This document shows positions 3,101 to 62,831 of a DNA stretch of 64,000 nt, one piece after another (the stretch's first letter is position 1; the number at the start of each line of letters is the position of its first letter). Source of the stretch: Craspedostauros australis (taxonomy: Eukaryota; Bacillariophyta; Bacillariophyceae; Mastogloiales; Achnanthaceae); NCBI GenBank assembly GCA_026770025.1, contig JAMXDE010000009.1, positions 1,277,001-1,341,000 on the forward strand, written 5' to 3'. The position numbers were made by a program, and so were the translations under genes. The notes beneath the pieces are model-generated. The model was not told where the DNA came from, searched no databases, and saw nothing but the letters and a program-made list of their open reading frames with translations.

Positions 3101-4430
3101 AATGGGTGCCACGTGTCGTGACAGGAGCTCCGAAAAAGCGAATTCTGGCCGCTTGCATCACGTTTTGCCTCTAAAACTCTAGGCTGACGCCATCATAACT
3201 TTATAACCAAAGACTGGACTCACTGTCTAGCACCTGCTACTTATTGCCAATGTGTTAACGTATATATGGTTAAATTTTAGTCTCCATAGGAGCCCATTTT
3301 TTCAGAATCCTGCCGTGGTCGTACGGTCATTGGCTGACGTGGGTCATATTATAGTAGCAATTACCGTTATTTCACGTTACAGCACACATTCAAATTTGTG
3401 ACTCTGGTCACACGCGGCGAATGTCCTCACATTTCGGCACAGAATTAACCTTTGCTTCTCTGTGATGGTGTGCTGTGCTTGTTGTATGTTCATGAGGTGT
3501 TTGTATCATCACCTTCTTCCCTCCTCCTGCTCAGTTCACTTCCATCACTAGTAGTCTTCTCCATCTACCCATCAGTATCAATCAGCATCATGCCCGTCTC
3601 TCCCACAAAAGCTGCGTCCAAGGACACCAATCCTTCCCCCTCCAAGAAGCAACATTTGCCATCCTCTCGATCCGTGCACCCCTTTCCATCCGATCCGATC
3701 GATTGCAAGGAGCTCTTTGCGCCATTTGCTTCTGAGAAGTTGTTGCCTCCATTGGATATGGATGGCAAGCAGCACATTCTGACATCTGCAATAGACAAGT
3801 TCGTGCCTCCTGTGCTCAAAGGCGCAACTTTCGACGACAGCTGTGACATTGAAATCCTAACGATGAACCAAATCGCACACTCCAACAAACACACAACAAA
3901 TACAACAATTACCCAACCACCGACGCACGCGAACAGCATTGACGCGGAGATTGTGCCTCCACAACAGACAACAGCAGAAGAGGAGGAAATCGCGCTGCAA
4001 CAAGAAGAAAACACAACATCGGAGCGAATCGCATGTGAGACACAAACAATGGAGGAACATACGGAATCTCCTGAGATAGTGGAACAAATGTGAGGGCACA
4101 ATCGCAGCAAAGAGTAAGAGCCGCGATGCATGAACTAGAAATAGATATAGCCTGAAATTGACAGTGAAAATTCTGGTTTTGGCGATACCAGCGAAGGCAC
4201 CAAGACACTGAATCTGGCCGTAGTGCGCTAGCCGTGTCTAGATGAGAGCAAAATTGAGGGGTCCATAGAAATTAAAATAGGGCCTTAGAGAAAAATCGAA
4301 GTCCACAAGGCATCTTATAATTTATCTAGTTTATTAATACATAAATGTTTTGGTCAAAATTTCCGTAAGTTGCCACCCTTACAGGACCGACTGCAGGTCC
4401 TGTCACTCAACTGGGTCATAGATATCAACA
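3100..4430 (+). mobile_element. Family T deletion derivative (T4), ends approximate
   Basis: This is a short relative of the T transposons at 10.7 and 51.2 kb. It keeps a transposase-like N terminus and an acidic C terminus and lacks everything between. Sequence upstream of the ORF resembles the T1 leader: 'ttatttcacgttacagcacac' near 3370 matches the 'ttaattacacgttagcatgtg' segment of T1. The right side ends in 'GTCACTCAACTGGGTC' followed by ATAG near 4430, resembling the T1 right end 'GACTCACTGATCGGGCTC' followed by ATAA. The left terminus is too diverged to fix, so both boundaries are estimates. Confidence 0.5.
3590..4093 (+). CDS. Truncated family T transposase-like protein (167 aa)
   Basis: Starts at the ATG matching the start of the two full-length T proteins. 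The first ~55 residues align with them by eye ('SKDTNPSPSKK' here, 'SKDANPSPSKK' in T1), including the Pro/Ser/Lys-rich stretch and the following Leu-Pro-rich segment. The last ~40 residues are Glu-rich ('TAEEEEIALQQEEN', 'MEEHTESPE'), like the T1 tail. The DDE core and the CxxC motif are absent. The frame is open despite an internal deletion of roughly 1000 codons. It could be a decayed remnant or a small regulator made by a non-autonomous copy; sequence alone does not decide. Confidence 0.45.
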   Translation: MPVSPTKAASKDTNPSPSKKQHLPSSRSVHPFPSDPIDCKELFAPFASEKLLPPLDMDGKQHILTSAIDKFVPPVLKGATFDDSCDIEILTMNQIAHSNKHTTNTTITQPPTHANSIDAEIVPPQQTTAEEEEIALQQEENTTSERIACETQTMEEHTESPEIVEQM

Positions 4431-10674: not shown

Positions 10675-10721
10675 CCCCATCTTGAAAGGCCAAACCGTCC
10701 ACCACAAAGTCCGTTGCATAA

Positions 10722-10803
10722 GAGCCCGATCAGTGAGTCGACCAATCGTTTGAAATGAAGAGTCTAATCGGATTTCTGGGATTTTCAAACTAAGCACATA
10801 TTC
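10722..10803. repeat. T1 left terminal inverted repeat
   Basis: Begins GAGCCCGATCAGTGAGTCGA and is matched by the reverse complement of the right end through 'actaagcacatattc', with a small block of mismatches around the 'tctaatcgg' segment. Confidence 0.85.
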
Positions 10804-11216
10804 AAAATCCTTGTAGTCTCTTTATGTACATGTCACCTTTTCAGTGCTTAGTAAAGCTTATTTTACGTTTTATGCACCGATCAATGTGTTCATTCTAGTC
10901 ACGTGGATCCAACCACGCAAAACTCGTTGGTAGCTGTCGAAGGTTCGATGATGTTCTCAAGTATTTATCGTCAGGTGGTCAGTCACGGACTAGCTCCCGA
11001 AGATGTCGGTGGTTTGGTACGCGTTAATTACACGTTAGCATGTGCCACAGGATTCCACATTCTGCTCGTCACAAAACACATGACACAAAACACATCACAC
11101 AAAACACATCATCTCCATCATTTCACAAAATCGCGCCCCGCTTTGGCTCCATGTCACAACTTTCCTCGCCAATGCCATGCACACTCGCCCTTTCGCTCAA
11201 TGCCCGTTGTCGTCAG

Positions 11217-11286
11217 AGTAGTAGTAGCAGTAGTAGTAGCAGTAGTAGTAGCAGTTGTTGTTGTTGTTGTTGTTGTTGTTGCTGTT
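11217..11286. repeat. AGT/GTT triplet tract in the T1 leader
   Basis: A (GTAGTAGTAGCA)n tract passing into (GTT)n. The same arrangement occurs at the corresponding place in T2 (51719-51800), so it belongs to the element leader. It lies about 110 bp upstream of the transposase ATG. Confidence 0.85.
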
Positions 11287-11398
11287 GCAAGCTGGTTTGC
11301 CTTTCATCGGATGCTCTCCTTGCTCACTTCGTCTCAGACCAGTGCACACCATCACATCCACCTAGCAAACCACACTACTCTCCACCAACAATCCCACC

Positions 11399-14300
11399 AT
11401 GTTTCCCTCTGCTGCTGCCAAGGCCCTCTCCAAGGATGCCAACCCCTCCCCCAGTAAGAAGCCGCGTTCTGCTCGCCCTGCATCTGCTCACCCTGTGCCT
11501 GCTCCTCCTGTCGATTCGAAGGGGTTCCTGTTGCCAACCGCCAATCAACTGTTGCCTGGCAAGCCGTCCGCTACGTTGAGGAAGCCGAGCACCATCACAC
11601 GAGTGATTGATGTGAAGCCGATGCATGCAGCGGATGGCGGCCTCGTCCCGAACGGTACGCATGCGCACGCTCGTGAGCTGCATGTGTTCGTCCACATCCT
11701 AGACAGCAACGGAGGCGTCTTTGACGACTCCCATGTCGAGGTGCGGTCGGAGGGACGAGGTGTTGGCGATGGAACAGTGGTGAGCGTTTTCGTGAACGCG
11801 CCACCCCCGCCTGCTGCACCTGACGTTGCACCACCTGTCGAGCCTACCCCGCCAGCTAGGCTTCCCCGCCAATGCAATACGATTGTTGCTGGCCGCTACG
11901 CAGACACCTCCAATGATAGCGACAGCACGTTCATTGACGAGGAGGAAAAGCAGACGCGCGCCGGCTGGGGCAGGAGGGGCGGCAAGTTTGAGTGTGACCC
12001 GACAGAGGAGGGCAGCTGGAGGCGTGATGCGATCGCTCGTGTGATGGCGGAGCTTGGATCTAACCTAGATTCAAAACTGTTGCAACTCATGCCAAAGAAA
12101 GGGTTCGTTCTCACAGGCAGACACGATCGGACCATCTGGAGCTACATCAAACAGGTGTGGAGTGTCGCATCGTGTGCACTTTGGAGTGTCCTGCTTCCAG
12201 AAGAGGGCGTGCCAACTTGTCAGATGGAACAGGTGGTTGCATACGTACGTGGCAATGTGGAACTTCCTCCAACGATGTTGGCATCCAATCTCTACACTGT
12301 GGGCTTGCTCGGAGAAACTACGTCATCCCGCACAGTTAGAGCTGCTCTGGTCATGTCTGCGCCACATGCACTGTGTACTGCTATCCTGGGTAGGCATGCA
12401 CAAGGATTGTCGGAGGAACAGAACGCCCGCATGCTTCCCAAACGCGACATCATCACGCAAAGCCAGGCAAGCACCTTGCGTCGCTACTTCGACAAGTTGA
12501 GTCACGGCGAAATCGTACCTGCGCGAGTTCTTCAGTACCGTGTGGGTGCCTGCAATCTCTCTGGTGTGGTGTCCTTCCTCATGAACACGACTACATACAA
12601 GGCAGGGTTGAGTCACACGGTAAAGTATGGTGGTGTCCAATTTGAAAATGTCCCGGTGTTCGATCGTGGAAGCACCACCATCCGAGACTTATTCGGCATG
12701 TACTCGTCAACGACTAACAACCCAGTGGGAAGGCCCGCCTTCACCACCATTACTAACCTACTCACACGCAAAAGCAAGATCAAGACAGGCCTCTCTTCCT
12801 TCGAAAGCTACTTCTGGATGGCGACGGAGAAACTGAAACAGGCAATTTCGCGCCTAGTAGAGCTACTCAAGGCTAAGTATGAAGCAGACGGAGAGGAGGA
12901 AAACGATGATGCTGTGGATGCCAATGACGAAAGCTACCACGACAATGATGATCCCAGTGACGTCATCGCACAGCATGAACGCACAGCCGATTCCCTGTTG
13001 CATGCGCTTGGACTGATTGTTGTGTTCCTCAAATGGGAATTCACCGCCTCCCACATGCAGCTTCAGTGTGACGATCCAATGCACTCGGCCGCGTTCGCTC
13101 TCACCACCAAAAAGGAGAAGAAGAAGGCAACAACCACATCAACCAATCAACGCAAACCACGCACCAACAAGCACAAGCGCAAGAAAACCACCTCTGTCAC
13201 AAACGACACTCCCACTGCCACGAATGACACTCCTGTGGTCACGACAAACGAACAACCACGTAAAGTATGCAACCGTTGTGGCGCAGCAATGCGATTTGTG
13301 AATGATCGTTTTGTTCCTTTTGTCAAAATGCTTAAGGACAACGAACTCGCAGAACACAAAGACGAATTGCAATCAATGCTTGCGGCGGCGCCAGGATTCG
13401 CCAATGAAATCGTTAAATACATGGCTCACAAAGTGCGTGCGAAAGTTCAATTCCAACAAATCAAATTTTATCAATCCACACTCAATGATAAGCCTGAAAG
13501 AGCCTATGTGGTACTTGACCATAAGCAAAAAATTCTACCGACAGGCCAAGGCGAAGCCCAACAAGCATATTGGGGGAAGAAGGGAATGTCACTGCTTGGG
13601 GCAATGGTCATCACATGTCGCAATGACATTTTTACTTATCGGTTCATCGACATTGTGGTCGACGGAAGACCGACTCAAGACACTCTTCAAGTTGGCGGAC
13701 TACTTGACATCGTGCAACAAAAGGTCAAAGAAATTCTCCCATCCGTGACTGAAATCATCCTACAGAGCGACAACGCGTGTTGCTTTGCCAGTCATGAGCA
13801 CATCGCGCTCATCACATCGGTACTCAACAAGAACCTTGCGACACGAAAAGCAGCTAAAATCATCGCGTGGATCTACACGGAGGCCCAAACCGGTAAGAGC
13901 ATGCTGGACACCCACTTCGCGTACATCACACGTGTACTGCGAAAATACGTGCAAAGTGGCAAGGACATCAAGACCCCTTTCCAAGTCTTCCTCGCGCTCC
14001 AAGCCGGTAACATCGCAGGTACGACAACGGTACTTGCCAACGCGGCGCTCCTGGCAGGCAACATCACCACGTTGCCTGGCGCACCAAAAAGACGATTCCG
14101 CGCATCTGGACAACAGGTACGTATGACTCACGAGGTGAAGTACGATGATGACCAGGCGCAGTTGGTGGCTGCATCTGGAATCACGGAAGACGTCGTGGTG
14201 AAGAGCGCTGAATGGGAAGGGTGGATCATCAACGAGTTGGGTGTCATCGCGGACAAAACATTCACGTCCGTCAAGCCGGCAATTACGTCCGAATCATTCA

Positions 14301-14941
14301 GGAAGACGGACAAGACGCGAAAACTCGGGCGTACAGCAACAGAGAGCAAGGCGTTCACGATCGGCAAAGCCCTCCAAGACGGACAACAACATCTACCATC
14401 CGATCACACCACAGCACTACAAGACCAGACCGCGGAAACCGAACACCCACCACTCGCAGTGCCAGGCTGGGCGAGCAAAACAACACGGACCAACGCCAAA
14501 CTACCAGACTACATCGCGGACAAATTGAAGGACATCTGCGCAGCGTCCGCGAAGGATCCGAAAAACAGACCATCCGAACACGAAGCACACGAGCAATTGA
14601 TGAGCGACGAAAAAACAAAAACTGACTGGTACGTACAACTGCATGCAAATCCCATGCGCGTCAAAGCATCGCTGTTTGCAGCGTACAGTGCCAAGCAACG
14701 CAAACAAAACCAGGAGGCTGTGCTCACCAAGACAGAAACCAACACAACAAACAAAGCAACAGCAGCATCCGCAATTGTGGCAATCCACAATGCACCAGCG
14801 AAAACAGAGGAAGAGCAGAGAGAAGAGGAGTTGCAGAGAGAAGAAGAGCAATTGGAGAATCAGAGGTGGTGTGATGCTCACACAATGAAGGCCAACACAG
14901 AAAGTGAGGCTGTGTTGGATGATGAGACGGAAATTTTGTGA
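11399..14941 (+). CDS. Family T putative DDE transposase, intact (1180 aa)
   Basis: One uninterrupted ORF. The ATG lies in an ACCATG context and corresponds to the 51904 ATG of T2. The N terminus is Pro/Ser/Lys-rich. A helical middle region follows, then a basic stretch ('KKEKKKATTT', 'RKPRTNKHKRKK') and a CxxC pair ('KVCNRCG', C624/C627) that may bind zinc. The presumed catalytic core has 'VVLDHKQKILP' (D707), 'IILQSDNACCF' (D791) and 'WIYTEAQTGKSMLDTHFAY' (E828 or D837). D791-E828 spacing is 36 residues, in the range of DDE recombinases. The C terminus is a Glu-rich probable coiled coil ('EEEQREEELQREEEQLE'). The role as transposase is inferred from position between TIRs, copy number and these acidic residues. 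I do not recognise the superfamily; Sola-like elements, which also make 4-bp duplications, are one possibility. Confidence 0.72.
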   Translation: MFPSAAAKALSKDANPSPSKKPRSARPASAHPVPAPPVDSKGFLLPTANQLLPGKPSATLRKPSTITRVIDVKPMHAADGGLVPNGTHAHARELHVFVHILDSNGGVFDDSHVEVRSEGRGVGDGTVVSVFVNAPPPPAAPDVAPPVEPTPPARLPRQCNTIVAGRYADTSNDSDSTFIDEEEKQTRAGWGRRGGKFECDPTEEGSWRRDAIARVMAELGSNLDSKLLQLMPKKGFVLTGRHDRTIWSYIKQVWSVASCALWSVLLPEEGVPTCQMEQVVAYVRGNVELPPTMLASNLYTVGLLGETTSSRTVRAALVMSAPHALCTAILGRHAQGLSEEQNARMLPKRDIITQSQASTLRRYFDKLSHGEIVPARVLQYRVGACNLSGVVSFLMNTTTYKAGLSHTVKYGGVQFENVPVFDRGSTTIRDLFGMYSSTTNNPVGRPAFTTITNLLTRKSKIKTGLSSFESYFWMATEKLKQAISRLVELLKAKYEADGEEENDDAVDANDESYHDNDDPSDVIAQHERTADSLLHALGLIVVFLKWEFTASHMQLQCDDPMHSAAFALTTKKEKKKATTTSTNQRKPRTNKHKRKKTTSVTNDTPTATNDTPVVTTNEQPRKVCNRCGAAMRFVNDRFVPFVKMLKDNELAEHKDELQSMLAAAPGFANEIVKYMAHKVRAKVQFQQIKFYQSTLNDKPERAYVVLDHKQKILPTGQGEAQQAYWGKKGMSLLGAMVITCRNDIFTYRFIDIVVDGRPTQDTLQVGGLLDIVQQKVKEILPSVTEIILQSDNACCFASHEHIALITSVLNKNLATRKAAKIIAWIYTEAQTGKSMLDTHFAYITRVLRKYVQSGKDIKTPFQVFLALQAGNIAGTTTVLANAALLAGNITTLPGAPKRRFRASGQQVRMTHEVKYDDDQAQLVAASGITEDVVVKSAEWEGWIINELGVIADKTFTSVKPAITSESFRKTDKTRKLGRTATESKAFTIGKALQDGQQHLPSDHTTALQDQTAETEHPPLAVPGWASKTTRTNAKLPDYIADKLKDICAASAKDPKNRPSEHEAHEQLMSDEKTKTDWYVQLHANPMRVKASLFAAYSAKQRKQNQEAVLTKTETNTTNKATAASAIVAIHNAPAKTEEEQREEELQREEEQLENQRWCDAHTMKANTESEAVLDDETEIL

Positions 14942-16700
14942 TGGCTGTGCGTCACCGCAATAACACTAGTTGTGGAGTTTTGTGGGGGATGAGTCGTGAT
15001 ACGTAGACTACTCTAGAGAGCATCCAAAATCCATCCAAACATCTGCTTATCATGCTATATCTCAATAATACATGGTTTACAATTAAATCTATACATTGCA
15101 TTCGTACACATGACTATCAATGAATCAGAATATCGAAGGTAAATTGAAATAGAAGTTATTTTTATTGTCATGTTGGTCCACCACACTGTTGTGTGGTGGA
15201 TTCACAAAATTCTCGATCAAGCAATGTTGCCCTCCCCTCAGCACCCATGACCATCATCATCATCCTGGTATTTCTGTAAACTGCGCACCACAATGGCTCT
15301 GTATGCTCCCCATCTATCCACTCCATGAAGGACAGATCGTTTCTGCCACATTGCATGCCCCAAAGTGTCGATACACTGAAAAAAGCGATTTCAAAAAACG
15401 ATTTGCAAGCCGGATGCGGTATGGATACGGATCCATACCTCATCCACATGGCCCTTTCAGCTCCTCCACATGACCCTCGTGCATTACCACACTCCCTGGC
15501 GACACGCTGACGCATCCAGAGGGGGCTGGACATGAATGGTACGGGTGGTACACCTCCATATGATGACGCCGTTGCTTTTTTGGGCGCCCCACCAAAAAAT
15601 GACCTGTCTGTACTCATTCGAGGCCGCAGCCTCTTCCAGACAATATCGAAGGCGCAAACTTCGTCAGGACCATCTTCCGTTGGTGGCGCACGCATCTTGT
15701 ATGGGTTAGTTGGCGATTGGGTGGCTTGATGATGCCTCCCCCTCACTGCCAAGGCCATGTGATGGGTACGCCGCGACCCGCCCAACAAAACTCTTGCCCT
15801 CCACCTTTCCCTCTGCGCGGACACCTTCCCGATCCTCCCCGACCCTCAAACTTCGTGGGCGCGTTGGTGATGGCCTCCTGGATGTGCCTTGACCCTCCAA
15901 AGGTGTTGGTGTGGGCTGTGTATGGAGCACGAAGGCCACATCCAACGAGCCAATCTGCCGCAAATTTGCGACGTTTGCGCGGGGGCCTGCCGCGGCCCCA
16001 AATGAACCGCTATCGCAGCCCCCTCTCGCCCACACACCAAACGTTGTATTGCGGTGACGGCGATGTGCTCGGATTTTTCATTGGGCCGCTGGTTGGTGCG
16101 GCGCTGACGATGCCGTTGGGTGGCCATTGTAGAATTTTTGTTTGTGATCCGCCATTGTCATGTTGTTGTTTCGAGTTTGGCGCTCTCAACCAGTCGCACA
16201 TCTTGGGGTCTGAGGCAATTATCAACTATTGTACCAAAATGAACGAAGGCAGCATGACACAAAACACTTCGGGAGTACCAACGCAACTTGACCATTCCGT
16301 CACGACGAAACGCAGTTGATGATGATTCACATCGTGCTGTGATTGGTGGTTCATGACGCAGCAGCCAGTTTGGTGACGTAGATCACGGATCATGCAAACA
16401 CTGGATAGAATGGATGTAAACGCGCACTCACCGCTTCTCCCCAAACTCTACAACTAGCGCTATCGTGGAGGAGGTGTGGGATGGTCTCATCGGAACACCT
16501 CAAAAAGAGACTAAACAATTCAAAATGGGAACAACGTCGCTGAAACGAAGAACAGCAAAGGGTTAAATTGGATCGATGTAGTCGTAGGCGAAAGGCTGAA
16601 ACCCGAAGGAGATGGACGAATGTGCAAATCCATCGGTCCATAAAACTTAAAATTCGGCCAACCTCGGAACTGGAATGGATTGGTATATGTTTTAGATCTA
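14942..16700. other. Conserved 3' module of T1
   Basis: 1.75 kb between the transposase stop and the right TIR. It is clearly homologous to 55375-57140 in T2. Several frames on both strands hold ORFs of 90-220 codons, such as minus-strand 15168-15824 ('RWRARVLLGGSRRT') and minus-strand 15706-16035 ('KVEGKSFVGR'). Minus-strand counterparts of both peptides exist in T2, but reading frames are not maintained across the module, so no single gene can be supported. It may hold a decayed or spliced second gene, or long subterminal binding sites. Confidence 0.6.
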
Positions 16701-16710
16701 TGAAGATTGC

Positions 16711-16792
16711 GAATATGTGCTTAGTTTGAAAATCCCAGAAATTCGACTCCACTCTTCATTTCAAACGATTGGTCGACTCACTGATCGGGCTC
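16711..16792. repeat. T1 right terminal inverted repeat
   Basis: Reverse complement of the left TIR. It ends GGTCGACTCACTGATCGGGCTC, followed at once by the ATAA duplication. Confidence 0.85.
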
Positions 16793-16796
16793 ATAA

Positions 16797-28731: not shown

Positions 28732-31518
28732 ATGATGTTTGTCGATCATGACCATCATAGAGATGATGCACCATCGTTCGCTTCCGACTTTGCCAATACC
28801 AACAGCCACAGCGACGGCCACAGCGATGGCCACAGCGACGACGCGATGGACGACGCCGAGTTCTTTCTGCACATGAAAGAGCTGATCGCATCGCATGCGA
28901 CGACTCCGGACGACGGCGATGTCCCCATCCTGGGACGAGCATTGCGTGGATCCAATCGAGCCCTGCAAGGCGACGACGATCGCGGATTGGCACCCGACGT
29001 GCTGGATGGTCAGGTCTGCCAGGATCTGCAGGTGATCGATGCCTGCCGTTCGACGGGTGTCGGCAATCGGTACAACCGCCGCTTCGCTCCCTTCACGGGC
29101 AGTTGCAACGGAGACTTCCTGTCCGGATTTCCCATCTACAAATCGAAGGCGGGCTTCCTCTACATGTACCCGCTCGACAAGTATCCCGACAATTGGAGCC
29201 TCGTGCAGTACCGCGGTCTCGTGCGATGGAGGATAGAGAGCTTCCACACGGAATCCGACAAGACCACGTGCCGTCGCGAGTTCAGCAACATCCATCGCGT
29301 CGACTTCGCCGCCGATGGTCAGCCCTACAAGTTCTTTCCCACCATCTCCTGCTTCGATAGGACAGGCAGCGACACGGACGGCTTCAAGAGCTCGACAATC
29401 AACATTCGTTGCAACGATGCGGTCGTTGGGCAAGGCGTTCCCACGGATCCGCCCGTTCCTATTCCAGTATCCGATGATGGAGGCGGCGGGGGTGGTGGTG
29501 GAGGCATGTCGGGCGGCGCTGTCTTTGCCATCGTGGCACTGCTGCTCGCCATCATTGGAGGTGCGATCTACTACTATTGGAAACACAAGAAGCGCGAAGG
29601 CAAACGCGCTTCCTTCCTTCCCAGCAACATGACCATGCCCAGCTTTGCCAAGGGCGGCAACAGCACGTATCCGCCGCAAGGAAAGTACTCTGATGGACGT
29701 GATGACGATAACGATAACGACTTTGATGACGAGCAACCAGCCGCGCCACCCGAATCATGGAGACAGCAGCAGGACTTCAAGAAGCAGCTTCCAGATGAGG
29801 GACCGAATGTCGTCAGCGACGATGCCGATAGCGACAGCACCGATAGCGACAACGGCATCCAAGTCAAACAACGCAAGCCAACTGCGGGCGATACGGGGGG
29901 AGACGACACGGCCACGTCCGATAGTCGGACGGCCAGCCAGAACAACTTGCCCGATGACAACTCATCGATCGGAAGCAATTTCAGCAACACGAGTCCGCTC
30001 AAGGAACAGCACTCCGCCGCAACCGCAACCACGATGACGTTGTCGCCAACCAGCTATGCCGCCAACAAACCGACTTCCAACAAACCCGACATGCAACGCA
30101 CGCTGTCGCAAAAGATTCAGGATCAACGTTCCAAGCTGCGTTCGCGCAACAGCGGTGCGACAGCTCCTGTGCGGCCGCCGTCACCCAAACCGGCCTTCAT
30201 CGACACCCACAAGATGAGGCTGCCACGACGCATGTCGATGGATCCGCCGGCATTGCGAGGCGTCATTCCCAAACGGCCCGTGGGACCACCGCCAAAGAAG
30301 CATATCATCCAGGTCAGCAGCGATGACGACGATGGGGAAGATGATGCGATTCCATCCGGTATCCGCGATATGGTCGATCATCTCGACGGAATGCTCAACA
30401 GTTTCGACGCCGATGATTTCAGCACGTTGGACAAAGATGACAAGGCGAAGAAGAACGGATCCACATCCGGCAGCGTTGCCACGTCGCCACGTTCCACATC
30501 GAAGCACAGTGGCACGGCCCGAAGCACCGAACTGTCGCCATCTGCAAGTGGACGGTCCAGATCGCCCGTCAAATCCCCATCTCCGCGCTCGCCGTCGCCG
30601 GAAACACCCGTCAAACGCCGTCCTCGCAGCGTCAGCAGGAACCGCCTGCCGCGCATGCTCGTCTCGCCCTTGCCCGAGTCACCAGACTCCAAGAGCGTCG
30701 ACGACGATATCTCCAACATCCCACCCGCCTTCCGACAGGCATTCGACAGAAGCCCGCAATCGAGAACATCGCGCTCGCTGTCGCCCGTCCGCAAGGTCAA
30801 GAAGGAAGGACAGCAACGTCGACGCCCGCAACCCAACAAGGATGCGAATGGCAAGAAGGCCAAGTCGGTATCGACGACGGCGCGTGCATTGCACGATGGG
30901 CGGCGCGATCGACAGAAGGACAGGACGCGGTCGCTGTCGCCCAACTACGATCTGCCGTACCGCAAGTATCAGCAACGTCCGCGCACGACGTCGACGCGGT
31001 CCAAATCATCGTCCAACGATCGGCAGCGTCCGCGCAACAAGTCGCTGTCGAAGGGATCCAATCACAGCTTGGCCAGCAGCAGCACGCACAGCAAGAAGAA
31101 GAAACAAAAGAGCAGCCTCGGGTCGTCCAGTACGCACAGCCAGAGGAAGAAGCAAAGGAGCAGCCTCGGATCGTCCAGTACGCACAGCCAGAGGAAGAAA
31201 CAAAAGAGCAGCCTCGGGTCGTCCAGTACGCACAGCCAGAGGAAGAAGCAAAGGAGCAGCCTCGGATCGTCCAGTACGCACAGCCAGAGGAAGAAACAAA
31301 AGAGCAGCCTCGGGTCGTCCAGTACGCACAGCCAGAGGAAGAAGCAAAAGAGTGTATCATCCACGCCCAAGCCGAGCGATAGAGAGGTGGCAGTGCAACC
31401 GGATGGTTCAGTTGTCGTCACCCAAAGGATCAAGCGCAGCGACGGCTCCACGGCCAAGCAGCGTATCACGTACAGCAACAAACGAGTGGCAGCCAAGCAT
31501 GGGGTTCATGTTGATTAG
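28732..31518 (+). CDS. Single-pass membrane protein with a long repetitive Ser/Arg/Lys cytoplasmic tail
   Basis: A 928-aa ORF; I do not recognise a family. The N-terminal ~260 residues are Asp/His-rich, then an ectodomain-like stretch with Cys residues and aromatic runs ('GFLYMYPLDKYPDNWSLVQYRGL', 'YKFFPTISCFDR'). A Gly-rich linker (GGGGGGGGGMSGG) leads to one TM helix ('AVFAIVALLLAIIGGAIYYYW', about residues 263-283) and a basic stop-transfer. The remaining ~640 residues are disordered: acidic patches, many SP and SRS motifs like phosphorylation sites, and six tandem 16-residue repeats (SSSTHSQRKKQKSSLG type). The ectodomain should be lumenal, but no signal peptide follows the ATG at 28732, so an upstream exon may be missing. 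The two in-frame ATGs at 28732 and 28735 are equivalent. Confidence 0.7.
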   Translation: MMFVDHDHHRDDAPSFASDFANTNSHSDGHSDGHSDDAMDDAEFFLHMKELIASHATTPDDGDVPILGRALRGSNRALQGDDDRGLAPDVLDGQVCQDLQVIDACRSTGVGNRYNRRFAPFTGSCNGDFLSGFPIYKSKAGFLYMYPLDKYPDNWSLVQYRGLVRWRIESFHTESDKTTCRREFSNIHRVDFAADGQPYKFFPTISCFDRTGSDTDGFKSSTINIRCNDAVVGQGVPTDPPVPIPVSDDGGGGGGGGGMSGGAVFAIVALLLAIIGGAIYYYWKHKKREGKRASFLPSNMTMPSFAKGGNSTYPPQGKYSDGRDDDNDNDFDDEQPAAPPESWRQQQDFKKQLPDEGPNVVSDDADSDSTDSDNGIQVKQRKPTAGDTGGDDTATSDSRTASQNNLPDDNSSIGSNFSNTSPLKEQHSAATATTMTLSPTSYAANKPTSNKPDMQRTLSQKIQDQRSKLRSRNSGATAPVRPPSPKPAFIDTHKMRLPRRMSMDPPALRGVIPKRPVGPPPKKHIIQVSSDDDDGEDDAIPSGIRDMVDHLDGMLNSFDADDFSTLDKDDKAKKNGSTSGSVATSPRSTSKHSGTARSTELSPSASGRSRSPVKSPSPRSPSPETPVKRRPRSVSRNRLPRMLVSPLPESPDSKSVDDDISNIPPAFRQAFDRSPQSRTSRSLSPVRKVKKEGQQRRRPQPNKDANGKKAKSVSTTARALHDGRRDRQKDRTRSLSPNYDLPYRKYQQRPRTTSTRSKSSSNDRQRPRNKSLSKGSNHSLASSSTHSKKKKQKSSLGSSSTHSQRKKQRSSLGSSSTHSQRKKQKSSLGSSSTHSQRKKQRSSLGSSSTHSQRKKQKSSLGSSSTHSQRKKQKSVSSTPKPSDREVAVQPDGSVVVTQRIKRSDGSTAKQRITYSNKRVAAKHGVHVD
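31070..31352. repeat. 48-bp coding tandem repeat
   Basis: Six units of 48 bp encode SSSTHSQRKKQ(K/R)SSLG. Adjacent units alternate 'aaacaaaagagc' and 'aagcaaaggagc', so a 96-bp higher-order unit has been duplicated. Confidence 0.9.
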
Positions 31519-43234: not shown

Positions 43235-43681
43235 TATTAGCATTATGCTTTATTCCGCACAGCTCTCTCTCGTGTTCGAGCTTAGTTGTGCGTATGAATC
43301 GTATCCTGAACCAACACGGACCATGAAATGGTCACATTACGAGCGAATAGCTCAACGAGAAACGAAACTAAAGAAGTACCAAGGTATTGGGTATCAGATA
43401 CAAGGTACCATGAAACAAGAACGATACTGTGAGATAGCTACTGACCCAAACCAGTTGAACCTGAAGAGATGTAAAGATCCTATCCGATGCATGCAGAACA
43501 GAGGAATGCAAGAGCAGAGGCATGGACATGAACAGAGGTCAGAGAGTAAGCTCACAACTCTTAAGTTTGTAATAACATTTGAGTTCCCAACAGACTTCCA
43601 GTGAACGCCCCCTTCTCGATCTGATCAATTGCAGAAGGACGCGTTCTACCCTACGTTACCACCAATTCCTCAAGTCTAACA
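43235..43681 (+). repeat. 5' LTR of copia A
   Basis: 447 bp, starts TATTAGCATTATG and ends CAAGTCTAACA. Same as 49301-49747 as far as I can read. An in-frame ORF of 119 codons in it is part of the LTR, not a gene. Confidence 0.92.
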
Positions 43682-43910
43682 GATTAACAGTCGCAATACT
43701 CTACGTCCCTAGCTGACTGAGTGAACGAACAACCCCAACCCGAGACAGCTTCATCCCAGCTGACCGAACGAGCATCACGTGACGACGTGATAGCACCCGA
43801 ACCGCAATTGCATTGAACGAGTCCGCAACAGCCTGTTGCCAACACACCGAACCCTCATCACCCGAGCGCATCCGCTGTGAAGAGACAGAACGAACCCGAT
43901 CATCTCCAAG

Positions 43911-49274: not shown

Positions 49275-49300
49275 AGGGCACAGAGATACGCTTCGGGGAG

Positions 49301-49747
49301 TATTAGCATTATGCTTTATTCCGCACAGCTCTCTCTCGTGTTCGAGCTTAGTTGTGCGTATGAATCGTATCCTGAACCAACACGGACCATGAAATGGTCA
49401 CATTACGAGCGAATAGCTCAACGAGAAACGAAACTAAAGAAGTACCAAGGTATTGGGTATCAGATACAAGGTACCATGAAACAAGAACGATACTGTGAGA
49501 TAGCTACTGACCCAAACCAGTTGAACCTGAAGAGATGTAAAGATCCTATCCGATGCATGCAGAACAGAGGAATGCAAGAGCAGAGGCATGGACATGAACA
49601 GAGGTCAGAGAGTAAGCTCACAACTCTTAAGTTTGTAATAACATTTGAGTTCCCAACAGACTTCCAGTGAACGCCCCCTTCTCGATCTGATCAATTGCAG
49701 AAGGACGCGTTCTACCCTACGTTACCACCAATTCCTCAAGTCTAACA
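49301..49747 (+). repeat. 3' LTR of copia A
   Basis: 447 bp, same sequence as the 5' LTR, followed by the CTTCT duplication and then copia B reverse transcriptase sequence. Confidence 0.92.
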
Positions 49748-51222: not shown

Positions 51223-51716
51223 GAGCCCCCCGAGTGAGTCGATCAAGACCTTGAAATGAAAAGTCTAATCGGATTTCTGGGATTTTCAAACTAAGCACAT
51301 ATTCGCAATCCTTGTAGTCTCTTTATGTATAATGGAACCTTTCAGATTGTAGTTAGTTTCATTTTAAGTTTTATGGATCAATCAATGTGTTTAGTCTAGT
51401 CGCGTGAATCCAACAGCACAAAATTCGTTTGTTTCTGCCGAAGGTTCGATGATGTTCTCATGTATTTATCGTCTGGTGATCAGTCACGAACTTGCTTCCG
51501 AAGGTCTCAGTCGTTTGGTACACGTTAATTACACGTTAGCATGTGGCGCATGATTCCACATTCTGCTCGTCACAAAACACGTGACACAAAACACATCACA
51601 CAAAACACATCATCCCCATCATTTTGCAAAATCGCGCCACACTTTCGCTCCGTTTCACAACTTTCCTCGCCAATGGCATGCACACTCGCTCTTTCGCTCA
51701 ATGCCCGTTCTTGTCA

Positions 51717-51718
<2 letters not shown>

Positions 51719-51767
<49 letters not shown>

Positions 51768-51800
51768 CAGTAGTAGTAGTAGTTGTTGTTGTTGTTGCTG
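51719..51800. repeat. AGT/GTT triplet tract in the T2 leader
   Basis: A long (AGT)n run passing into (GTT)n, corresponding to the T1 tract at 11217. About 100 bp upstream of the transposase ATG. Confidence 0.85.
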
Positions 51801-51903
51801 AATGATCGGCCTTCATCCCGTGCTCTCCTTACCTCACTTCCTCTCAGACCAGTTCATCACATCCAACAAGCAAACAGCACTACTCTCCAGCAACAACTCC
51901 ACC

Positions 51904-54900
51904 ATGCCTACCTCTGCTGCTGACAAAGCCCTCCCCAAGGATGGCAACCCCTCTCCTCGTAAGAAGCTGTGTTCTGCTCACCCCATGCCTGCTCACCCAT
52001 TCGACTCCAAGGGAGCCCTGCTGCCAGCCTCTGAGCAACTGTTGCCTGACAAGCCATTCGCTGTATTGGGGAGGCAGAGCACCATCACGCGAGTGATCGA
52101 TGTGAAACCGATGCATGCAGCGGATGGCAACCTCGTCCCGAACGGTACGCATGCGCACGCTCGCGAGCTGCATGTGTTCGTCCACATCCTCAACGACAAC
52201 GGAGGCGTCTTCGACGACTCCCATGTCGAGGTGCGTTCGGAGGGACGAGGTGTCGGCGATGGGACTTTGGTGAGCGTTATCGTGAACGCGCCACCCTCGC
52301 CTACTGCAGCCGACGTTGCACCACCTGTCGAGCCTACCCCGCCAGGGAGGGTTCCCCGGCGTTGCAACACTGTTGTTGCCGGGGGGTACGCAGATCCGTC
52401 TATTGACAGCGACAGTACGTACGTTGACGAGGACGAAAAACAGGCGCGCGCTGGCTGGGACAGGAGAGGAGGCGAGTTCGGGCATGATCAGGAAGAGGAG
52501 GGGGGAAACTGGAGGCGCCATGCCATTGTTCGTGTGATGGCAGCGCTTAGATCTAACCTAGATCCAAAACTGTTGCAGCTCATGCCAAAAAAAGGATTTG
52601 TCCTCGCGGGCCGACACGAACGGACCATCTGGAGCTACATCAAACTGATGTGGAGTGTCACATCATCTGCACTTTGGACTGTCCTGCTTCCAGAAGAGAA
52701 CGTGCCAACTTGTCAGATGGAACAGGTGATTGCATACGTGCGCGGGAACGTGGAGCTTCCTCCCACGATGTTGGCATCTAACCTCTACACCCTCTGCTTG
52801 CTCGGAGAATCTTCTTCTTCCCGCACGGCAAGAGTTGCTTTGGCCATGTCTGCACCGTCTGCACTGTGTACTGCTATTCTGGGTAGGCACACACATGCAC
52901 TGTCGGAGGAACAGAAGGCTCGCATGCTTGCCAAACGCGACATCATCACACCCAGCCAGACATACACCTTGCGTCGTTACTACGACATGTTAAGCCATGG
53001 CAAAAGCATTCCACAGCGAGTTCTCCAGTACCGTGTGTGTGCTTGCGACCTGTCTGGCGTGGTGTCCTTCCTCATGACAACTACTACATATAAGGCAGGG
53101 TTGAGTCACACGGTACAGTATGGTGGAGTTGTATTTGAAAATGTTCCGGTGTTCGATCGAGGAAGCACGACTATCGAACAACTATTCGACATGTACTCGT
53201 CTACGACCAACCGCCCAGTGGGAATGCCTGCTTTCACCACCATGACCAACCTACTAACACGCAAAAGCAAGATCAAGACGGGCCTCTCTTCCTTCGAGAG
53301 TTACTTCTGGATGGCGACGGAGAAACTCAAACAGGCAATTTCGCGCCTAGTAGACCTACTGAAGGCTAAGTATGAAACTGATGGGGAGGAACAAAACGAT
53401 GCCAATGACAGGAGCCACAACGATACCGATGAGCCAGATGACGTCATCGCACATCATGTACGCAAAGCCGATTCCCTCTTGCATGCACTCGAACTGCTTG
53501 TTGTGTTCCTCAAATGGGAATTCACCGCCTCCCACATGCAGCTTCACTGCGACGACCCCATGCATTCGGCCGCGTTCGCTCTCACCACCAAAAAGGAGAA
53601 GAAGAAGGCACCAACCACATCCTCCAATCAACGCAAACCACGCACCAACAAGCACAAGAGCAAGAAGAACACCGCGCGTAAAGTATGCAACCGTTGTGGA
53701 TCAGCAATGCGATTTGTGAACGATCGTTTTGTCCCTTTTGTCAAAATGCTTAAGGACAACGAACTCGCAGAACACAAGGACGAATTGCAATCAATGCTTG
53801 CGGCGGCGCCGGGATTCGCCAACGAAATTGTTAACTACATGGCTCACAAAGTGCGTGCAAAAGTTCAATTCCGACAAATCGCCTTTTATCAATCCGAACT
53901 CAATGATAAGCCTGAAAGAGCCTATGTGGTGCTTGACCATAAGCAAAAAATTCTACCGACAGGCCAAAGCGAAGCCCAACAAGAATATTGGGGGAAGAAG
54001 GGAATGTCACTGCTTGGGGCGATGGTCATCACGTGTCGCAATGACATTTTTACTTATCGGTTCATCGACATTGTGGTCGGTGGACGACCGACACAAGACA
54101 CACTTCAAGTTGGTGCACTGCTTGACATCGTGCAAAAAAAGGTCAAAGACATTCACCCATCCGTGACTGAGATCATCCTACAGAGCGATAACGCGTGTTG
54201 CTTTGCCAGTCACGAGCACATCCCACTGATCACATCGGTACTCAACAAGAACCTTGTGACACGAAAAGCAGCCAAAATCATCGCGTGGATCTACACAGAG
54301 GCCCAAACTGGTAAGAGCATGCTGGACACCCACTTCGCGTACATCACCCGTGTACTGCGAAAATACGTGCAAAGTGGCAAGGACATCAAGACCCCGTTCC
54401 AACTCTTCCTTGCACTGAAAGCCGGTAACATCGCGGGTACCACCACGGTACTGGTCAACGCAAAGACCCTCCAAGGCAACATCACGTCGCTTCCTGGCGC
54501 ACCAAAACGACGATTCCGCGCGAACGGGCAACAGGTACGTCAGACTCACGAGGTGAAGTATGATGATGACCAGGCGCGGTTGGTGGCTGCATCTGGCATC
54601 ACGGAAGACGTCCTTGTGAAGAGCGCTGAATGGGACGGCTGGATCATCAACCAACTGGGCGTTGCCGATGTTCACACACACAAGTCCGACAAGCTGCCGA
54701 TAACGTCCGAATCGTTCAGGAAGACGGACAAGACGCAAAAACTCGGGCGCACAGCGGCAGAGAGCAAGGGGCTGGCGTTCGGCAAAGCCATTGCAGACGG
54801 ACAACAACATCTACCATCCGATCACACCACAGCGCTACAAGACCAGACCGCCGAAACCGAACACCCTCCACTCGCAGTGCCAGGCTGGGCGAGCAAAACA

Positions 54901-55374
54901 ACGCGCAAACCAGCGGAACTACCAGACTACATCGCGGACAAGTTGAAGGACATCAGTGAAGCGTCCGCGAAGGACCCAAAAAACAGGCCATCCGAACACG
55001 AAGCACACGAACAATTGATGGACGACAACAGGACCAAAACTGACTGGTACGTACAACTGCACGCAAACCCCATGCGCGTGAAAGCGTCGCTGTCTGCAGC
55101 GTACAACGCCAAACAACGCAAGGACAAGAAGGAGGCCGCTCTCATCAAGGCGGAAGCCAACACCGACACCAACACCAACCCAACAAGCAAAGCAACAGCA
55201 TCTGCAATCGTGGCGACCCACTATGCGCCAGCTGAAACACAGGAGGAACGAACAGAGAAGGAGTTGCAGAGAGAGGAGGAGGAGCTGGATCATCAGATGT
55301 GGTGTGATGCTGACACACTGAAGGCCAACACAGAAAGTGAGGCTGTGTTGGATGATGGGACGGAAATTTTGTGA
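51904..55374 (+). CDS. Family T putative DDE transposase, intact (1156 aa)
   Basis: The start is set at the ATG matching T1 ('MPTSAADKALPKDGNPSPRKK'). The frame is open 34 codons upstream to another ATG (51802), but that part lies in the repeat-containing leader. All landmarks of T1 are kept: 'KVCNRCGSAMRF', 'VVLDHKQKILPTGQ', 'IILQSDNACCFASHEH', 'WIYTEAQTGKSMLDTHFAYI', 'LKAGNIAGTTTVL' and a Glu-rich tail. Small length changes versus T1 fall in linkers, for example 'DANDRSHNDTDEPDD' and the shortened basic Thr-rich segment before CxxC. Substitutions sit mainly in linkers while the core is nearly unchanged, which suggests purifying selection and possible activity. Confidence 0.72.
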   Translation: MPTSAADKALPKDGNPSPRKKLCSAHPMPAHPFDSKGALLPASEQLLPDKPFAVLGRQSTITRVIDVKPMHAADGNLVPNGTHAHARELHVFVHILNDNGGVFDDSHVEVRSEGRGVGDGTLVSVIVNAPPSPTAADVAPPVEPTPPGRVPRRCNTVVAGGYADPSIDSDSTYVDEDEKQARAGWDRRGGEFGHDQEEEGGNWRRHAIVRVMAALRSNLDPKLLQLMPKKGFVLAGRHERTIWSYIKLMWSVTSSALWTVLLPEENVPTCQMEQVIAYVRGNVELPPTMLASNLYTLCLLGESSSSRTARVALAMSAPSALCTAILGRHTHALSEEQKARMLAKRDIITPSQTYTLRRYYDMLSHGKSIPQRVLQYRVCACDLSGVVSFLMTTTTYKAGLSHTVQYGGVVFENVPVFDRGSTTIEQLFDMYSSTTNRPVGMPAFTTMTNLLTRKSKIKTGLSSFESYFWMATEKLKQAISRLVDLLKAKYETDGEEQNDANDRSHNDTDEPDDVIAHHVRKADSLLHALELLVVFLKWEFTASHMQLHCDDPMHSAAFALTTKKEKKKAPTTSSNQRKPRTNKHKSKKNTARKVCNRCGSAMRFVNDRFVPFVKMLKDNELAEHKDELQSMLAAAPGFANEIVNYMAHKVRAKVQFRQIAFYQSELNDKPERAYVVLDHKQKILPTGQSEAQQEYWGKKGMSLLGAMVITCRNDIFTYRFIDIVVGGRPTQDTLQVGALLDIVQKKVKDIHPSVTEIILQSDNACCFASHEHIPLITSVLNKNLVTRKAAKIIAWIYTEAQTGKSMLDTHFAYITRVLRKYVQSGKDIKTPFQLFLALKAGNIAGTTTVLVNAKTLQGNITSLPGAPKRRFRANGQQVRQTHEVKYDDDQARLVAASGITEDVLVKSAEWDGWIINQLGVADVHTHKSDKLPITSESFRKTDKTQKLGRTAAESKGLAFGKAIADGQQHLPSDHTTALQDQTAETEHPPLAVPGWASKTTRKPAELPDYIADKLKDISEASAKDPKNRPSEHEAHEQLMDDNRTKTDWYVQLHANPMRVKASLSAAYNAKQRKDKKEAALIKAEANTDTNTNPTSKATASAIVATHYAPAETQEERTEKELQREEEELDHQMWCDADTLKANTESEAVLDDGTEIL

Positions 55375-57140
55375 TGGATGTGCATCGCCGCGATAACACG
55401 AGTTGTGGAGTTTTGTGGGTGGCAGACCATGCTAATACAACGAGTCTAGAGGCCATCCAAAAAACACATCCAATATCTGCTTGTCATGCTATATCTCAAC
55501 AACACATCGTTTGCAATTAAATCTAAACATTGCATTCAGACGCCTGACTATAGGTTATACAGAATATCGAAGTTAAATTGACATAGAAATTGTTTTTATT
55601 GTCATGTTTGACCACCACACAGTTGTGTGGTGAATTCGAAAAATTCTGGATGGCACAATGTTGCCCTCCCCTCAGCACCCATGATCATCATCATCATCGT
55701 TGTATTTCTTCAAACTGCGCACCACAATGGCTCTGTATGCTCCCCAGCTATCCACTCCATGAAGGACAGAACATTTCTGCCACATTGCACACCCCAAAGT
55801 GTCGATACACTGAAAAAGAACGATTTCAAAAAACGAAGTGCAAGCTGGATGCAGTATGGATACAGATCCATATCTCATCCACAGGACCCTTTCAGCCCCT
55901 CCACGTGACCCTCGTGCATTCCCACACTATCTGGCGACATGTTGATGCATCCAGACTGGGCTGGGTGTGGATGGTCCCGATAGCACACCTCCATTTGGTG
56001 ATGGCCCTGTTGGTTTTGGGTGCCCCACCAAAAATGACAGGTATGCACTCATTCGATGCCGCAGCCTCTTCCAGACCGTTGCAGCAGCTCGAACTTCGCG
56101 ACGTGCATCTTCAGGCGATGACGCACGGGTCTTGTATGGGTGACTTGGAGATTGGGCAGCTTGATGATGCTGCCCCCTCACTGCCAAAGTCACATGGCAG
56201 GTTCGCCACGATCCGCCCAACAAAACTCTTGCCCTCCACCTTTTCCTCCGCGCGGACACCTTCCCGGTCCTTCCCGAGCCTCAAACTTCGTGGGGACCTT
56301 GATGGTGACCTCCTGGATGCGTCTTGCCCATTCGCAGGTGTTGGTGTGGCCTGTGCATGGAATACACAGGCTACATCCAACGAGCCAATCTGCCGCAATT
56401 TTGAGACGTTTGCGCGGAGGCCTGCGGCGGCCCCAAATCAACCGCTCTCGCAGCCTCCGCTCGTCCACCCACCAAGGGTTGCATGGCGGTGACGTCGATG
56501 TGCTTGGATTTGTCATTGGGCCGCTGGTTGGTGCGGCGCTGACGATGCCGTTGGGTGTCCATTGTGATGTTTTTTTGGTGTTCCGCCATTGTCATCTTCT
56601 TGTGTCGAGTTTGGCGCTCTCGGCCAGTCGGGCATCCTGGGGGCTGAGGTAAATGTCAAACATTGCAACGAACGTACGAAAAATGCATGACACAAAACAC
56701 TTCGGGAGTACCAACGCAACTCGACCATTCCGTCACGACGAAACGCAGTTGATGATGATTCACATCGTGCTGTGATTGGTGGTTCATGACGCAGCAGCCA
56801 GTTTGGTGACGTAGATCACGGATCATGCAAACACTGGATAGAGTGGATGTAAACGCGCACTCACCGCTTCTCCCCAAACTCTACAACTAGCGCTATCGTG
56901 GAGGAGGTGTGGAATGGTCTCATCGGAACGCCTGAAAAAGAGACTAAACAATTCAAAATGGGAACAACCTTGCTGAACCGAAGAACAGCAAAGGGTTAAG
57001 TTGGATCGATGTAGTCGTAGCCAAACAGCTGAAACCCGAAAGAGATCGAAAAATGCGCACATCCATCGGTCCATAAAACTTAAAATACGGCCAACCTCAG
57101 ATCTGGAATGGATTGGTATATGTTTTAGATCTACGAGGAT
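55375..57140. other. Conserved 3' module of T2
   Basis: Homologous to 14942-16700 in T1, with the last ~500 bp (from 'cacttcgggagtaccaacgc') almost identical. Overlapping ORFs on both strands match T1 peptides in part (minus 'RWRARVLLGGSWRT', minus 'KVEGKSFVGRI'), but frames are interrupted relative to T1. No gene called. Confidence 0.6.
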
Positions 57141-57225
57141 TGGGAATATGTACTTAGTTTTGAAATCGCACGAAAAAAGTTGCGAGGTCTATTTCAAAGT
57201 CTTGATCGACTCACTCGGGGGGCTC

Positions 57226-57468
57226 TTATGCGACAACAATACTGTGATCTCAAACAAGACGATCGCAGACAGCCTACTACAAAAGAAGCGTGTGGCAACA
57301 TCATTCCACAAAGTGCGCAAGTCTGTGGAAGCCAATATACTGGTTCCAGTATACGTTTCATCAGCACAGAACTTCGCGGATATGCTCACAAAGGCATTGG
57401 CGCGGCCAACACTAACCACTTCCGTCACAGCTCTGTTCTACAGGGGTCATCCTCAAGATCAACAGGTG
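57226..57468 (+). pseudogene. Copia B RNase H, second part
   Basis: Continuation after T2: 'LLCDNNTVISNKTIADSLLQKKRVATSFHKVR' region, 'VSSAQNFADMLTKALARP' and 'ALFYRGHP', ending close to the 3' LTR. Matches the C-terminal end of copia C. Confidence 0.85.
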
Positions 57469-60317: not shown

Positions 60318-61364
60318 GAGAGTACGAAGAACGAGCGAGCGAGCAAGCGAGAGAGATTAGAGTAGATGACATTGTCATGAGTGGCGATCGTGGTAGCAAT
60401 CACAACATCATGAATAATGAAGTCAACTAAAACGAAACGAAATGAAGCAAAAGGCAACATCAAAACTGACAACGAAAGACGGACAGCGGGCCCAGAGCGA
60501 CCAGAACAGGCACGAGCCGGGATAGGATCCGAAACCATTACGCAAGCAAGCACTGGTGTCGCCTCGCTAGAGAAATACATAACATCATATAATACTAAGA
60601 CAATAAAAGACGACAAAATGCGTCAGAGAATACACGTAGCAGTAGTGCGAGCATTCATCGTGCGAAGGATGTTGACATGGAGGTGAGTCTGATCTACTTT
60701 TATCATTCGTTTCCGTCTCGGGTGGATGCTTCGCCGTTCCTCTACCAAGAGCTGCCGTACTTCACTTACAAAGGCATACGAATACCGTACGAGTAGCACG
60801 AGTCGCAGGTATTATACTCTGCGAAAGGAGGCCCCTCCAAATCATGTGTAACCCGCTGCCTCGAAGTGCTACATCGTCAACCAAACCGCAGTCCCTTCTT
60901 GATTCATACGCAAAGGATCGGCAACCATCCACCAAACAACAGCCAAAGGGAAAGATGCGATGAGGCTCCGTGTATTCGAACATAGAGAGCGCCTCATTGG
61001 CGTCGGAGCAAGCTGGTGCACGTGCCTACCGAGGATAGGAGATCCTGTACACGAGAATCTTACTGCAGGTTTCTATTCTCTCCAGCCATTTCGTAGCCTG
61101 TTGCTACCAATGCTATTAGTGAGTTGGCTTCGATAGCGTCTTTTATCCATGACCCAACACAAGTAATCGAAGCAGTCCGACTGTTTGATTAGAAACGGAC
61201 ACCACGTCCTTCGATAAAAGAACAAGAACAACGATTCGGACTCGGACGATTGTTTTTGACAATTCTCACTGCATCGGCAAAAATACACGTTTTTCTTTCC
61301 GTGTATCACAATTCTGATGCAAAATTGTTGCCCCTGATGTTGATTGGCTAACGCTGATGGATAA
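60318..61364. other. Intergenic region, no gene recognised
   Basis: 1 kb between the secreted-protein gene and transposon remnant T3. Short ORFs only. ATAA at 61361-61364 is the likely T3 target duplication. Confidence 0.5.
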
Positions 61365-62657
61365 GACCCACTCGAGTGAACGAAGGTGCAGTCGTGCCTG
61401 ATCGTGACTTAAACTTTAACAAAATAAGTACATATTCGGAATCCAAGTAAAATTTTGTCGAGGGATATTTAATTTAAAAATCGGGAGAGTTGTGGATCAA
61501 AAGTTATAGACCCTGCAATAGTTTTGGTCTTCGGCCGTTGTAGACCTTCCTTAGACTTCGCTGGGTATCGCCAAAACTCGCTGATGATGTCACACCTGTT
61601 CCTATTTTGAATTATTTTTCGCTTGCTATCTGGTTCTGACACGATTCACAATTTCCCACGTCACATTTTCCTTCAATGTTTCCGCACTTTCGACTGCTTG
61701 TTTTGCCGCATGTGGATGCAAATCATCATGGATTTACTGCAACATTTCGTCTTCCTTGGCTCTGCACCGTCCAAATTCTTCTTCGTCACAACCAGAATCA
61801 TGCAACGTTGGTTGCGCACTGGCGCTCGCAGTCATACGTACCATTGTGCACTCCATCGTTTCAGCGGTTTTTGACTTCTTTTCTTGTTTTTTTACTTGAG
61901 ATAGTCCGTGATGAGGTATGCTTTACTCTCAGTGGTGATACTTGTAGTTGAGCGTACCAGTCTGTTTTCACCCGTTCCATCGCCATCAGTTGTCGGTGTG
62001 TGTCGTGCTCCGACATTCTGTTCCTCGAGTCATGGCAAGCAAGTACGCAGATTTTGTTCAGCTCTGCCAACAAATAGTCAGGGATAGGTTCAAACGATCG
62101 AGTCTTCTTTGCGGCGCAACCCGGTGTTGTAACAGGAGGAAGATCCATAGCAGCAGTTGTATCCTTCCACATTGCGTCGTGATCAGCAGTTTCCATGAGG
62201 TTGTTGTGGACGGCTGTTTTTAGTACATCCGCTTCGCTCTGTTTCACACTCTTCTGGGCCTTTCGCCTCATCTTGCCATATTGTATCCACTGGTACTGGT
62301 TGGCGTGACTACTTGTGGTCTTCCTTCACCGTCGCGCCAAGTTTGTTCACAACGGAGCACTCCCAAGCCTCTTCCTCCACCAATTTGGCATCGGTGACAT
62401 TCGAAGCTTCAATTAACCAAGCTTTCTCATCCTCGTATTGAATCTCGTGAGTGTTGGGAACACCAAGCATGTTTGCAGACCATCGAGCTCTTGGGCTCGT
62501 ACAGTGAGTCAGCCACTTGCCCTTCAATAGGGAAGCTTCAACCAGCAACATTGTGGTGCCTTTGATGTCTCCAAATTGCAGGGCTTTCAAGATGATCGCC
62601 ATCCCTTCCATCGCTGTCGCCATCACCTGTTGCCTTGTCACCATTGCGATCCCTGCT
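61365..62657 (-). mobile_element. Family T transposon remnant T3, interrupted by copia C
   Basis: The lower-coordinate end starts GACCCACTCGAGTGA, matching the T2 terminus GAGCCCCCCGAGTGA, and is preceded by ATAA. The inner segment 'ataagtacatattcggaatcc' matches the T1 TIR 'ctaagcacatattcaaaatcc'. It is oriented on the minus strand. The transposase 3' part is present (61861-62657). The 5' part lies beyond the copia C insertion, outside the window. The 3' region is only about 0.5 kb here, against 1.85 kb in T1 and T2, so the 3' module is missing. Confidence 0.78.
61861..62657 (-). pseudogene. Family T transposase C-terminal fragment
   Basis: Reading leftward from 62657: 'ILKALQFGDIKGTTMLLVEASLLKG' matches T1 'FLALQAGNIAGTTTVLANAALLAG', then 'HEIQYEDEKAWLIEASNVTDAKLVEEEAWE' matches 'HEVKYDDDQAQLVAASGITEDVVVKSAEWE'. 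A stop follows at about 62309. Another frame (62271-61861) has 'IPDYLLAELNKICVLACHDSRNRMSEHD' and 'VKTDWYAQLQVSPLRVK', matching the T1 tail. Stop plus frameshift, no N-terminal core: inactive. Confidence 0.78.
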
Positions 62658-62819: not shown

Positions 62820-62831
62820 CGCCCCTTGATC

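Follow-up and report, generated by a model that had tools for sequence, protein, structure and literature searches.

The stretch of DNA analysed here (64,000 nucleotides of Craspedostauros australis, C7:1277001-1341000, referred to as the window) contains two complete copies, T1 and T2, of a transposon family in which a motif of the inner terminal inverted repeat (TIR) goes along with one segment of the encoded protein. The two elements consist of the following parts (ORF, open reading frame; aa, amino acids).

10718..10721, no strand: left target-site duplication of T1, ATAA
10722..16792, forward strand: T1, complete element of 6071 bp, defined by its ends, its duplication and its ORF
10722..10809, forward strand: left TIR of T1, 88 bp, 93% identical to the right one
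11399..14941, forward strand: T1 ORF of 1180 aa, putative DDE/D transposase, under purifying selection
12059..12538, forward strand: aa 221-380 of T1, putative end-recognition cassette that goes along with the motif of the inner TIR, all-helical in a low-confidence prediction
13268..13279, forward strand: C624-xx-C627, a possible zinc-binding motif, read from the sequence
13496..13948, forward strand: putative RNase H-like catalytic core, aa 700-850, with D707, D791 and D837 (E828 as alternative third residue)
14942..16704, forward strand: 3' non-coding stretch of T1
16705..16792, reverse strand: right TIR of T1
16793..16796, no strand: right target-site duplication of T1, ATAA
51219..51222, no strand: left target-site duplication of T2, TTAT
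51223..57225, forward strand: T2, complete element of 6003 bp within a Copia-like retrotransposon
51802..55374, forward strand: T2 ORF, 1190 aa from the first ATG and 1156 aa from the T1-homologous start at 51904
57226..57229, no strand: right target-site duplication of T2, TTAT

Both elements carry GAGCCC at either end in inverted orientation (GAGCCCGATCAGTGAGTCGACC at both ends of T1) and are flanked on both sides by perfect 4-bp duplications, as an earlier reading of the DNA without database searches (the sequence-only reading) had described. The length given there for the T1 ORF also agrees with ours, whereas the 1156 aa given for T2 apply to the T1-homologous start and not to the first ATG. 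The T1 and T2 proteins are 81% identical. The boundaries of T2 are independently supported, since its flanks, joined by a single TTAT, align without gaps to relatives lacking the insertion, present in L030 and at other places in the window, which are 77-79% identical and have TTCT at the insertion spot.

The end sequence GAGCCCNNNNAGTGAGTCGACC has 215 exact matches in the whole assembly that was searched (74.8 Mb, 90 contigs), whereas the reversed pattern used as control has none, which excludes a chance origin of the ends. TAN precedes 213 of these 215 ends. A perfect 4-bp duplication is present in 45 of 46 end pairs, and all 45 read NTAN. Of the 46 pairs, 30 were drawn from the first 100 places listed, one is T2, and 15 belong to copies that were fetched whole; of the 20 copies fetched in this way, the remaining five have a single recognised end and stand outside the pairs, except for L010, which is represented as L089/L090. 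The only pair without a perfect duplication, L063/L064, has further ends clustered around it and was probably paired wrongly. With the strands collapsed, the duplications are ATAA/TTAT (14), ATAG (9), ATAT (5), ATAC (5), TTAA (4), CTAG (3), CTAC (2), GTAA (2), and CTAA (1). The TTAT/ATAA specificity assumed in the sequence-only reading is thus not the rule in the flanks of further copies: only the central TA is fixed, a dinucleotide that makes up 2.5% of the positions in the window. As the reverse complement of TTAT, ATAA is not a separate site, and although the two together make up the commonest class, any preference for them is mild at most; outside the four duplicated bases no clear base preference was found. 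The nearly invariant TA might suggest a relative of Tc1/mariner, but this is very improbable, as it is contradicted by duplications of 4 bp instead of TA alone in all pairs but one, and the protein has no match to a Pfam transposase model. Some insertions of the family are nested in other copies or clustered beside them, namely at C9:1593306-1605482, where separate duplications flank the inner and the outer copy, and at C1:2668993-2681083.

A 700-bp core probe yielded 221 candidates, of which 40 were scored (94-100% identity), and a protein probe yielded 595; among the best 39 of these, a sample biased towards good copies, 32 have no internal stop. The ends of the family read GAGCC or GACCC, and the TIRs range from about 27 to over 150 bp across the copies. 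Sixteen complete copies measure 6003-6092 bp; the longest ORF encodes 1150-1273 aa in all but L018, which is frameshifted, and likewise in 15 of the 16 the distance from the ORF stop to the element end is 1829-1853 bp. No second ORF common to all 16 copies was found in this 3' part of 1.85 kb, and an antisense frame of about 330 codons is present in seven of them. Out of 213 ends 100 were listed, 74 of which form 37 adjacent pairs while 26 are unpaired; 31 pairs span 6013-6115 bp and six span 11-21 kb, and among these 37 pairs no miniature copy with both exact ends was found, the shortest span being 6013 bp. The ORF of about 1180 aa is under purifying selection, with a median ratio of nonsynonymous to synonymous divergence (dN/dS) of 0.29 for the whole ORF and 0.19 for the core (15 copies; L018 and pairs with dS <=0.1 dropped). 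As L024 and L026 differ at three positions over 6053 bp and occupy different insertion sites, the family must have transposed very recently. The earlier description as an active or recently active cut-and-paste family is therefore borne out with regard to recent transposition, TIRs, a DDE/D-type protein and the 4-bp duplication, whereas the cut-and-paste mode is a deduction, an excision product not having been seen. Together with the explanation developed below, T1 and T2 are probably intact members of a large family of autonomous DNA transposons.

Within the inverted repeat, the inner part varies from copy to copy and continues with AATCG, AAGAC or ACTCG (A-type) or with TGCA (TG-type), and the new finding here is that this motif tracks aa ~221-380 of the protein and little else in 6 kb. 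The segment aa 160-400 separates all 20 of the first 20 copies with data according to the inner repeat, with a mean identity of 86% within and 54% between the groups and no overlap (L011 has no cassette and is left out of the cassette counts). In all other segments the groups overlap, with identities within and between groups of 89 and 78% for aa 1-160, 90 and 85% for aa 400-620, 95 and 93% for aa 620-900, and 88 and 83% for aa 900-1110. At the DNA level, compared in seven representatives of the 16 elements, a difference of at least 0.09 is confined to nucleotides 1-300, 1351-1800 (0.23-0.28) and those after 6001, and the ranges of the two types are fully apart only in the windows starting at 151, 1501, and 1651. 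A scan of the protein in 14 labelled copies (L024 dropped; L034 without inner and L038 without outer label) gave a difference above 0.06 only within aa 181-400, with a peak of 0.37 at aa 301-340, compared to a maximum of 0.29 in 300 label shuffles. In the same scan the tip of the TIR (groups GATC, CCCG, and CTT, with the CTCG tip of L033 placed with CCCG) showed no association above 0.06 with any protein segment.

A first written prediction for six copies with unseen inner repeats, three of which (L032, L033, and L036) had a single end found, held in four cases and failed for L037 and L038, whose repeats start with TGCA and continue with CTTTGAAATGG. A refined rule, according to which an A-type cassette goes along with TTGAAA at TIR positions 29-34, was fixed before 18 further copies were fetched, for which only the cassette and the far 3' end were taken; a script assigned the cassette classes during that run. 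It held for 17 of these 18 fresh copies, the exception being L142 with TTGCAA. Counted by clusters (45 copies in 17 clusters at 95% identity, discovery set included), TTGAAA is present in eight of nine A-type and in none of eight TG-type clusters; L034 was counted as TG there and stands outside the within and between figures of the 45-copy comparison. We infer that aa ~221-380 form a domain that reads the inner inverted repeats and that, along with the ends matching it, is exchanged between copies. The segment is predicted, with low confidence, to be all-helical, as are many DNA-binding domains.

The same agreement between cassette and TIR could have arisen without any reading of the ends if two ancestral families met and the middle of the element was homogenised by gene conversion. 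In favor of this, dS between copies is 0.18 in aa 620-900 and 0.73 in aa 1-400, and this fourfold lower value in the catalytic core points to homogenisation between copies, which on this evidence did occur. Moreover, the N-terminal part of the protein is encoded on the side of the element where the 5' TIR region lies, and the groups also show some difference in aa 1-160. However, directly downstream of the cassette identity within groups equals that between groups, and directly upstream the two are at most 0.04 apart (seven representatives), the far 3' repeat agrees with the cassette although it is more than 4 kb away, and the equally linked TIR tip shows no association. Relic ancestry is therefore weakened, since the association is absent right beside the cassette and at the TIR tip, and we regard it as a rather unlikely source of the pattern compared to a cassette that reads the ends.

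The residues named in the sequence-only reading (D707, D791, E828, D837, C624-xx-C627, and a Glu-rich tail) are all present. An alignment of 18 rows shows no change at D707, E828, or D837 and a single exception at D791, in L039, which also has an upstream stop. With regard to a clustering of the acidic residues in an RNase H fold, in a core model of low confidence (mean predicted local distance difference test score, pLDDT, 43.4; best E 0.016) the RNase H strand order is present and D707, D791, and D837 fit the acidic positions expected in b1, after b4, and in the helix after b5. In the structure comparison of this model retroviral integrases were the only DDE type to stand out, with glucokinases and unrelated chains ranking among them, and the full-length model is poor beyond a helical hint. 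The protein would be a DDE/D transposase of RNase H fold with the triad D707, D791, and most likely D837. No convincing sequence match of the protein was found in Pfam, NCBIfam, PHROGs or PDB, the PDB searches with the protein and with two alignments giving none, and the weak Pfam matches obtained with 27 core proteins and with T1 and T2 include no integrase family. Relatives in viral contigs, prokaryote genomes, and plasmids were not found at the sensitivity used, which says little since these collections hold few eukaryotes. Both negatives would suit a transposase superfamily that has never been described, which is nevertheless unlikely in our view; Pfam may not model every named superfamily, Sola included, and this counts against reading novelty into missing matches. 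Somewhat more doubtful still is the fuller proposal of an undescribed NTAN-inserting superfamily with an exchangeable end-recognition cassette of ~160 aa and a catalytic part common to all copies, in which new pairings of cassette and TIR would give rise to lineages unable to mobilise one another.

Taken together, we consider it rather probable that the family is an autonomous NTAN-inserting DDE/D transposon with an end-reading cassette that persists only with matching ends. A transposase multimer would bind the inner repeat via aa ~221-380, the RNase H core would cut at the GAGCC ends and join them 4 bp apart around TA, and sequence exchange between copies would mix much of the remaining element. 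As the cassette would function only with matching ends, mismatched combinations would be lost. The arguments on how a transposon splits into lineages that ignore each other's ends come mostly from families that are old and divergent. The present genome has many young copies, different in their ends and one protein segment and nearly alike in much else. Since the young copies differ mainly there, no structure is needed to locate the recognition domain, which could be tested by a single domain swap. Furthermore, a 4-bp target that is centred on TA and free in its outer bases offers a clean entry to how a transposase reads TA and joins with a 4-bp stagger.

Besides T1 and T2, two further traces of transposases are present in the window.

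about 3584..4420, forward strand: relic of a diverged relative (L035 type) with an internal deletion, N- and C-terminal pieces joined
61867..62593, reverse strand: C-terminal transposase fragment, frameshifted, beside a Copia piece, 37-43% identical to P0001, P0002, and P0003

Instead of the four copies counted in the sequence-only reading, only two complete elements were found in the window. When the window was scanned for the end motif, the exact matches were the four ends of T1 and T2, and there was one match with two mismatches (62493) and five with three; the end of a third copy said to abut ATAA was not found in it. The Copia piece with the frameshifted fragment (61362-63763) recurs in L030 with 95.5% identity over 2404 bp, as if the transposase end was carried along with the retroelement. 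Relatives of the fragment are present at further genome places, and the diverged ones (C13:1687855, C37:428160, C13:894510, C7:1087510, and others) have 4-5 TGA stops per ~128 codons, TGA exceeding the other stop types, which could be due to a mutational bias on repeats. A Copia-type retrotransposon at 43235-49600, with an RVT_2 reverse transcriptase in 46770-48476, is bounded by direct repeats of 300 bp reported as 100% identical, and its insertion is therefore probably very young. A Gly/Arg-rich ORF of 440 aa (58995-60317) has a hydrophobic start and repeated Cys-rich units and no Pfam match, and tandem repeats with units of 48 bp (31032-31400) and 18 bp (1010-1225) run in phase within ORFs. 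Pfam matches in the window include presenilin, Dak kinase, and tRNA methyltransferase. The genome has 61 chlorophyll-binding matches; one of these proteins, compared to PDB, gave LHCI-11 of 9vfj as best match, and the 16 matches listed include fucoxanthin LI818 and FCP chains, so that the host is probably a red-lineage photosynthetic alga.

A literature search for a named family with NTAN duplications found none, and its leads were limited to Sola, Ginger, and Kolobok. Tc1/mariner elements have a fixed target TA as here, but duplicate this 2-bp TA (PMC5199201) instead of 4 bp. PiggyBac and Kolobok also have a 4-bp duplication with central TA, but are described as TTAA-specific (PMC9587614), and TTAA accounts for four of the 45 sites here, for which reason both were rejected. 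Ginger1 and Ginger2/Tdd resemble the family in mostly 4-bp duplications and long TIRs, and the target of Ginger2, RTATAY, is AT-rich; however, Ginger ends are given as TGTNR (PMC2836005) and not as GAGCC or GACCC, and a match to a Gypsy-type integrase domain is absent, so that Ginger was rejected as well. Sola1, Sola2, and Sola3 are alike to the family in 4-bp duplication, TIR, size, and three acidic residues with the third possibly D: they are described with a DDD transposase, 4-bp duplications, TIRs of 11-1124 bp and mostly 2-9 kb in length (PMC10741241), and the duplications, TIRs, and element lengths found here all fall within this description. D707, D791, and D837, a possible DDD triad, are conserved and in place in the low-confidence model, with E828 being equally conserved. 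In bivalves, the mean length of Sola1 consensus elements is 5445 bp (PMC10294476), and Sola has been annotated in the diatom Cyclotella cryptica (PMC7466962). On the other hand, the targets reported for dictyostelid Sola2, AWWT in one species and ATAT, AAAT or ATTT in another (PMC3627910), differ from NTAN and fit only the five ATAT sites. That the family is an ordinary Sola member in a host where it had not been catalogued is a serious possibility, falling just short of an even chance. Sola is the nearest described group and the best family candidate, and the transposon may work like a Sola-type one with regard to its 4-bp duplication and DDD triad; as this likeness is one of descriptions, we do not file the family as Sola. 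The proposed exchange of cassettes can in turn be likened to restriction enzymes, in which target-recognition domains are shuffled.
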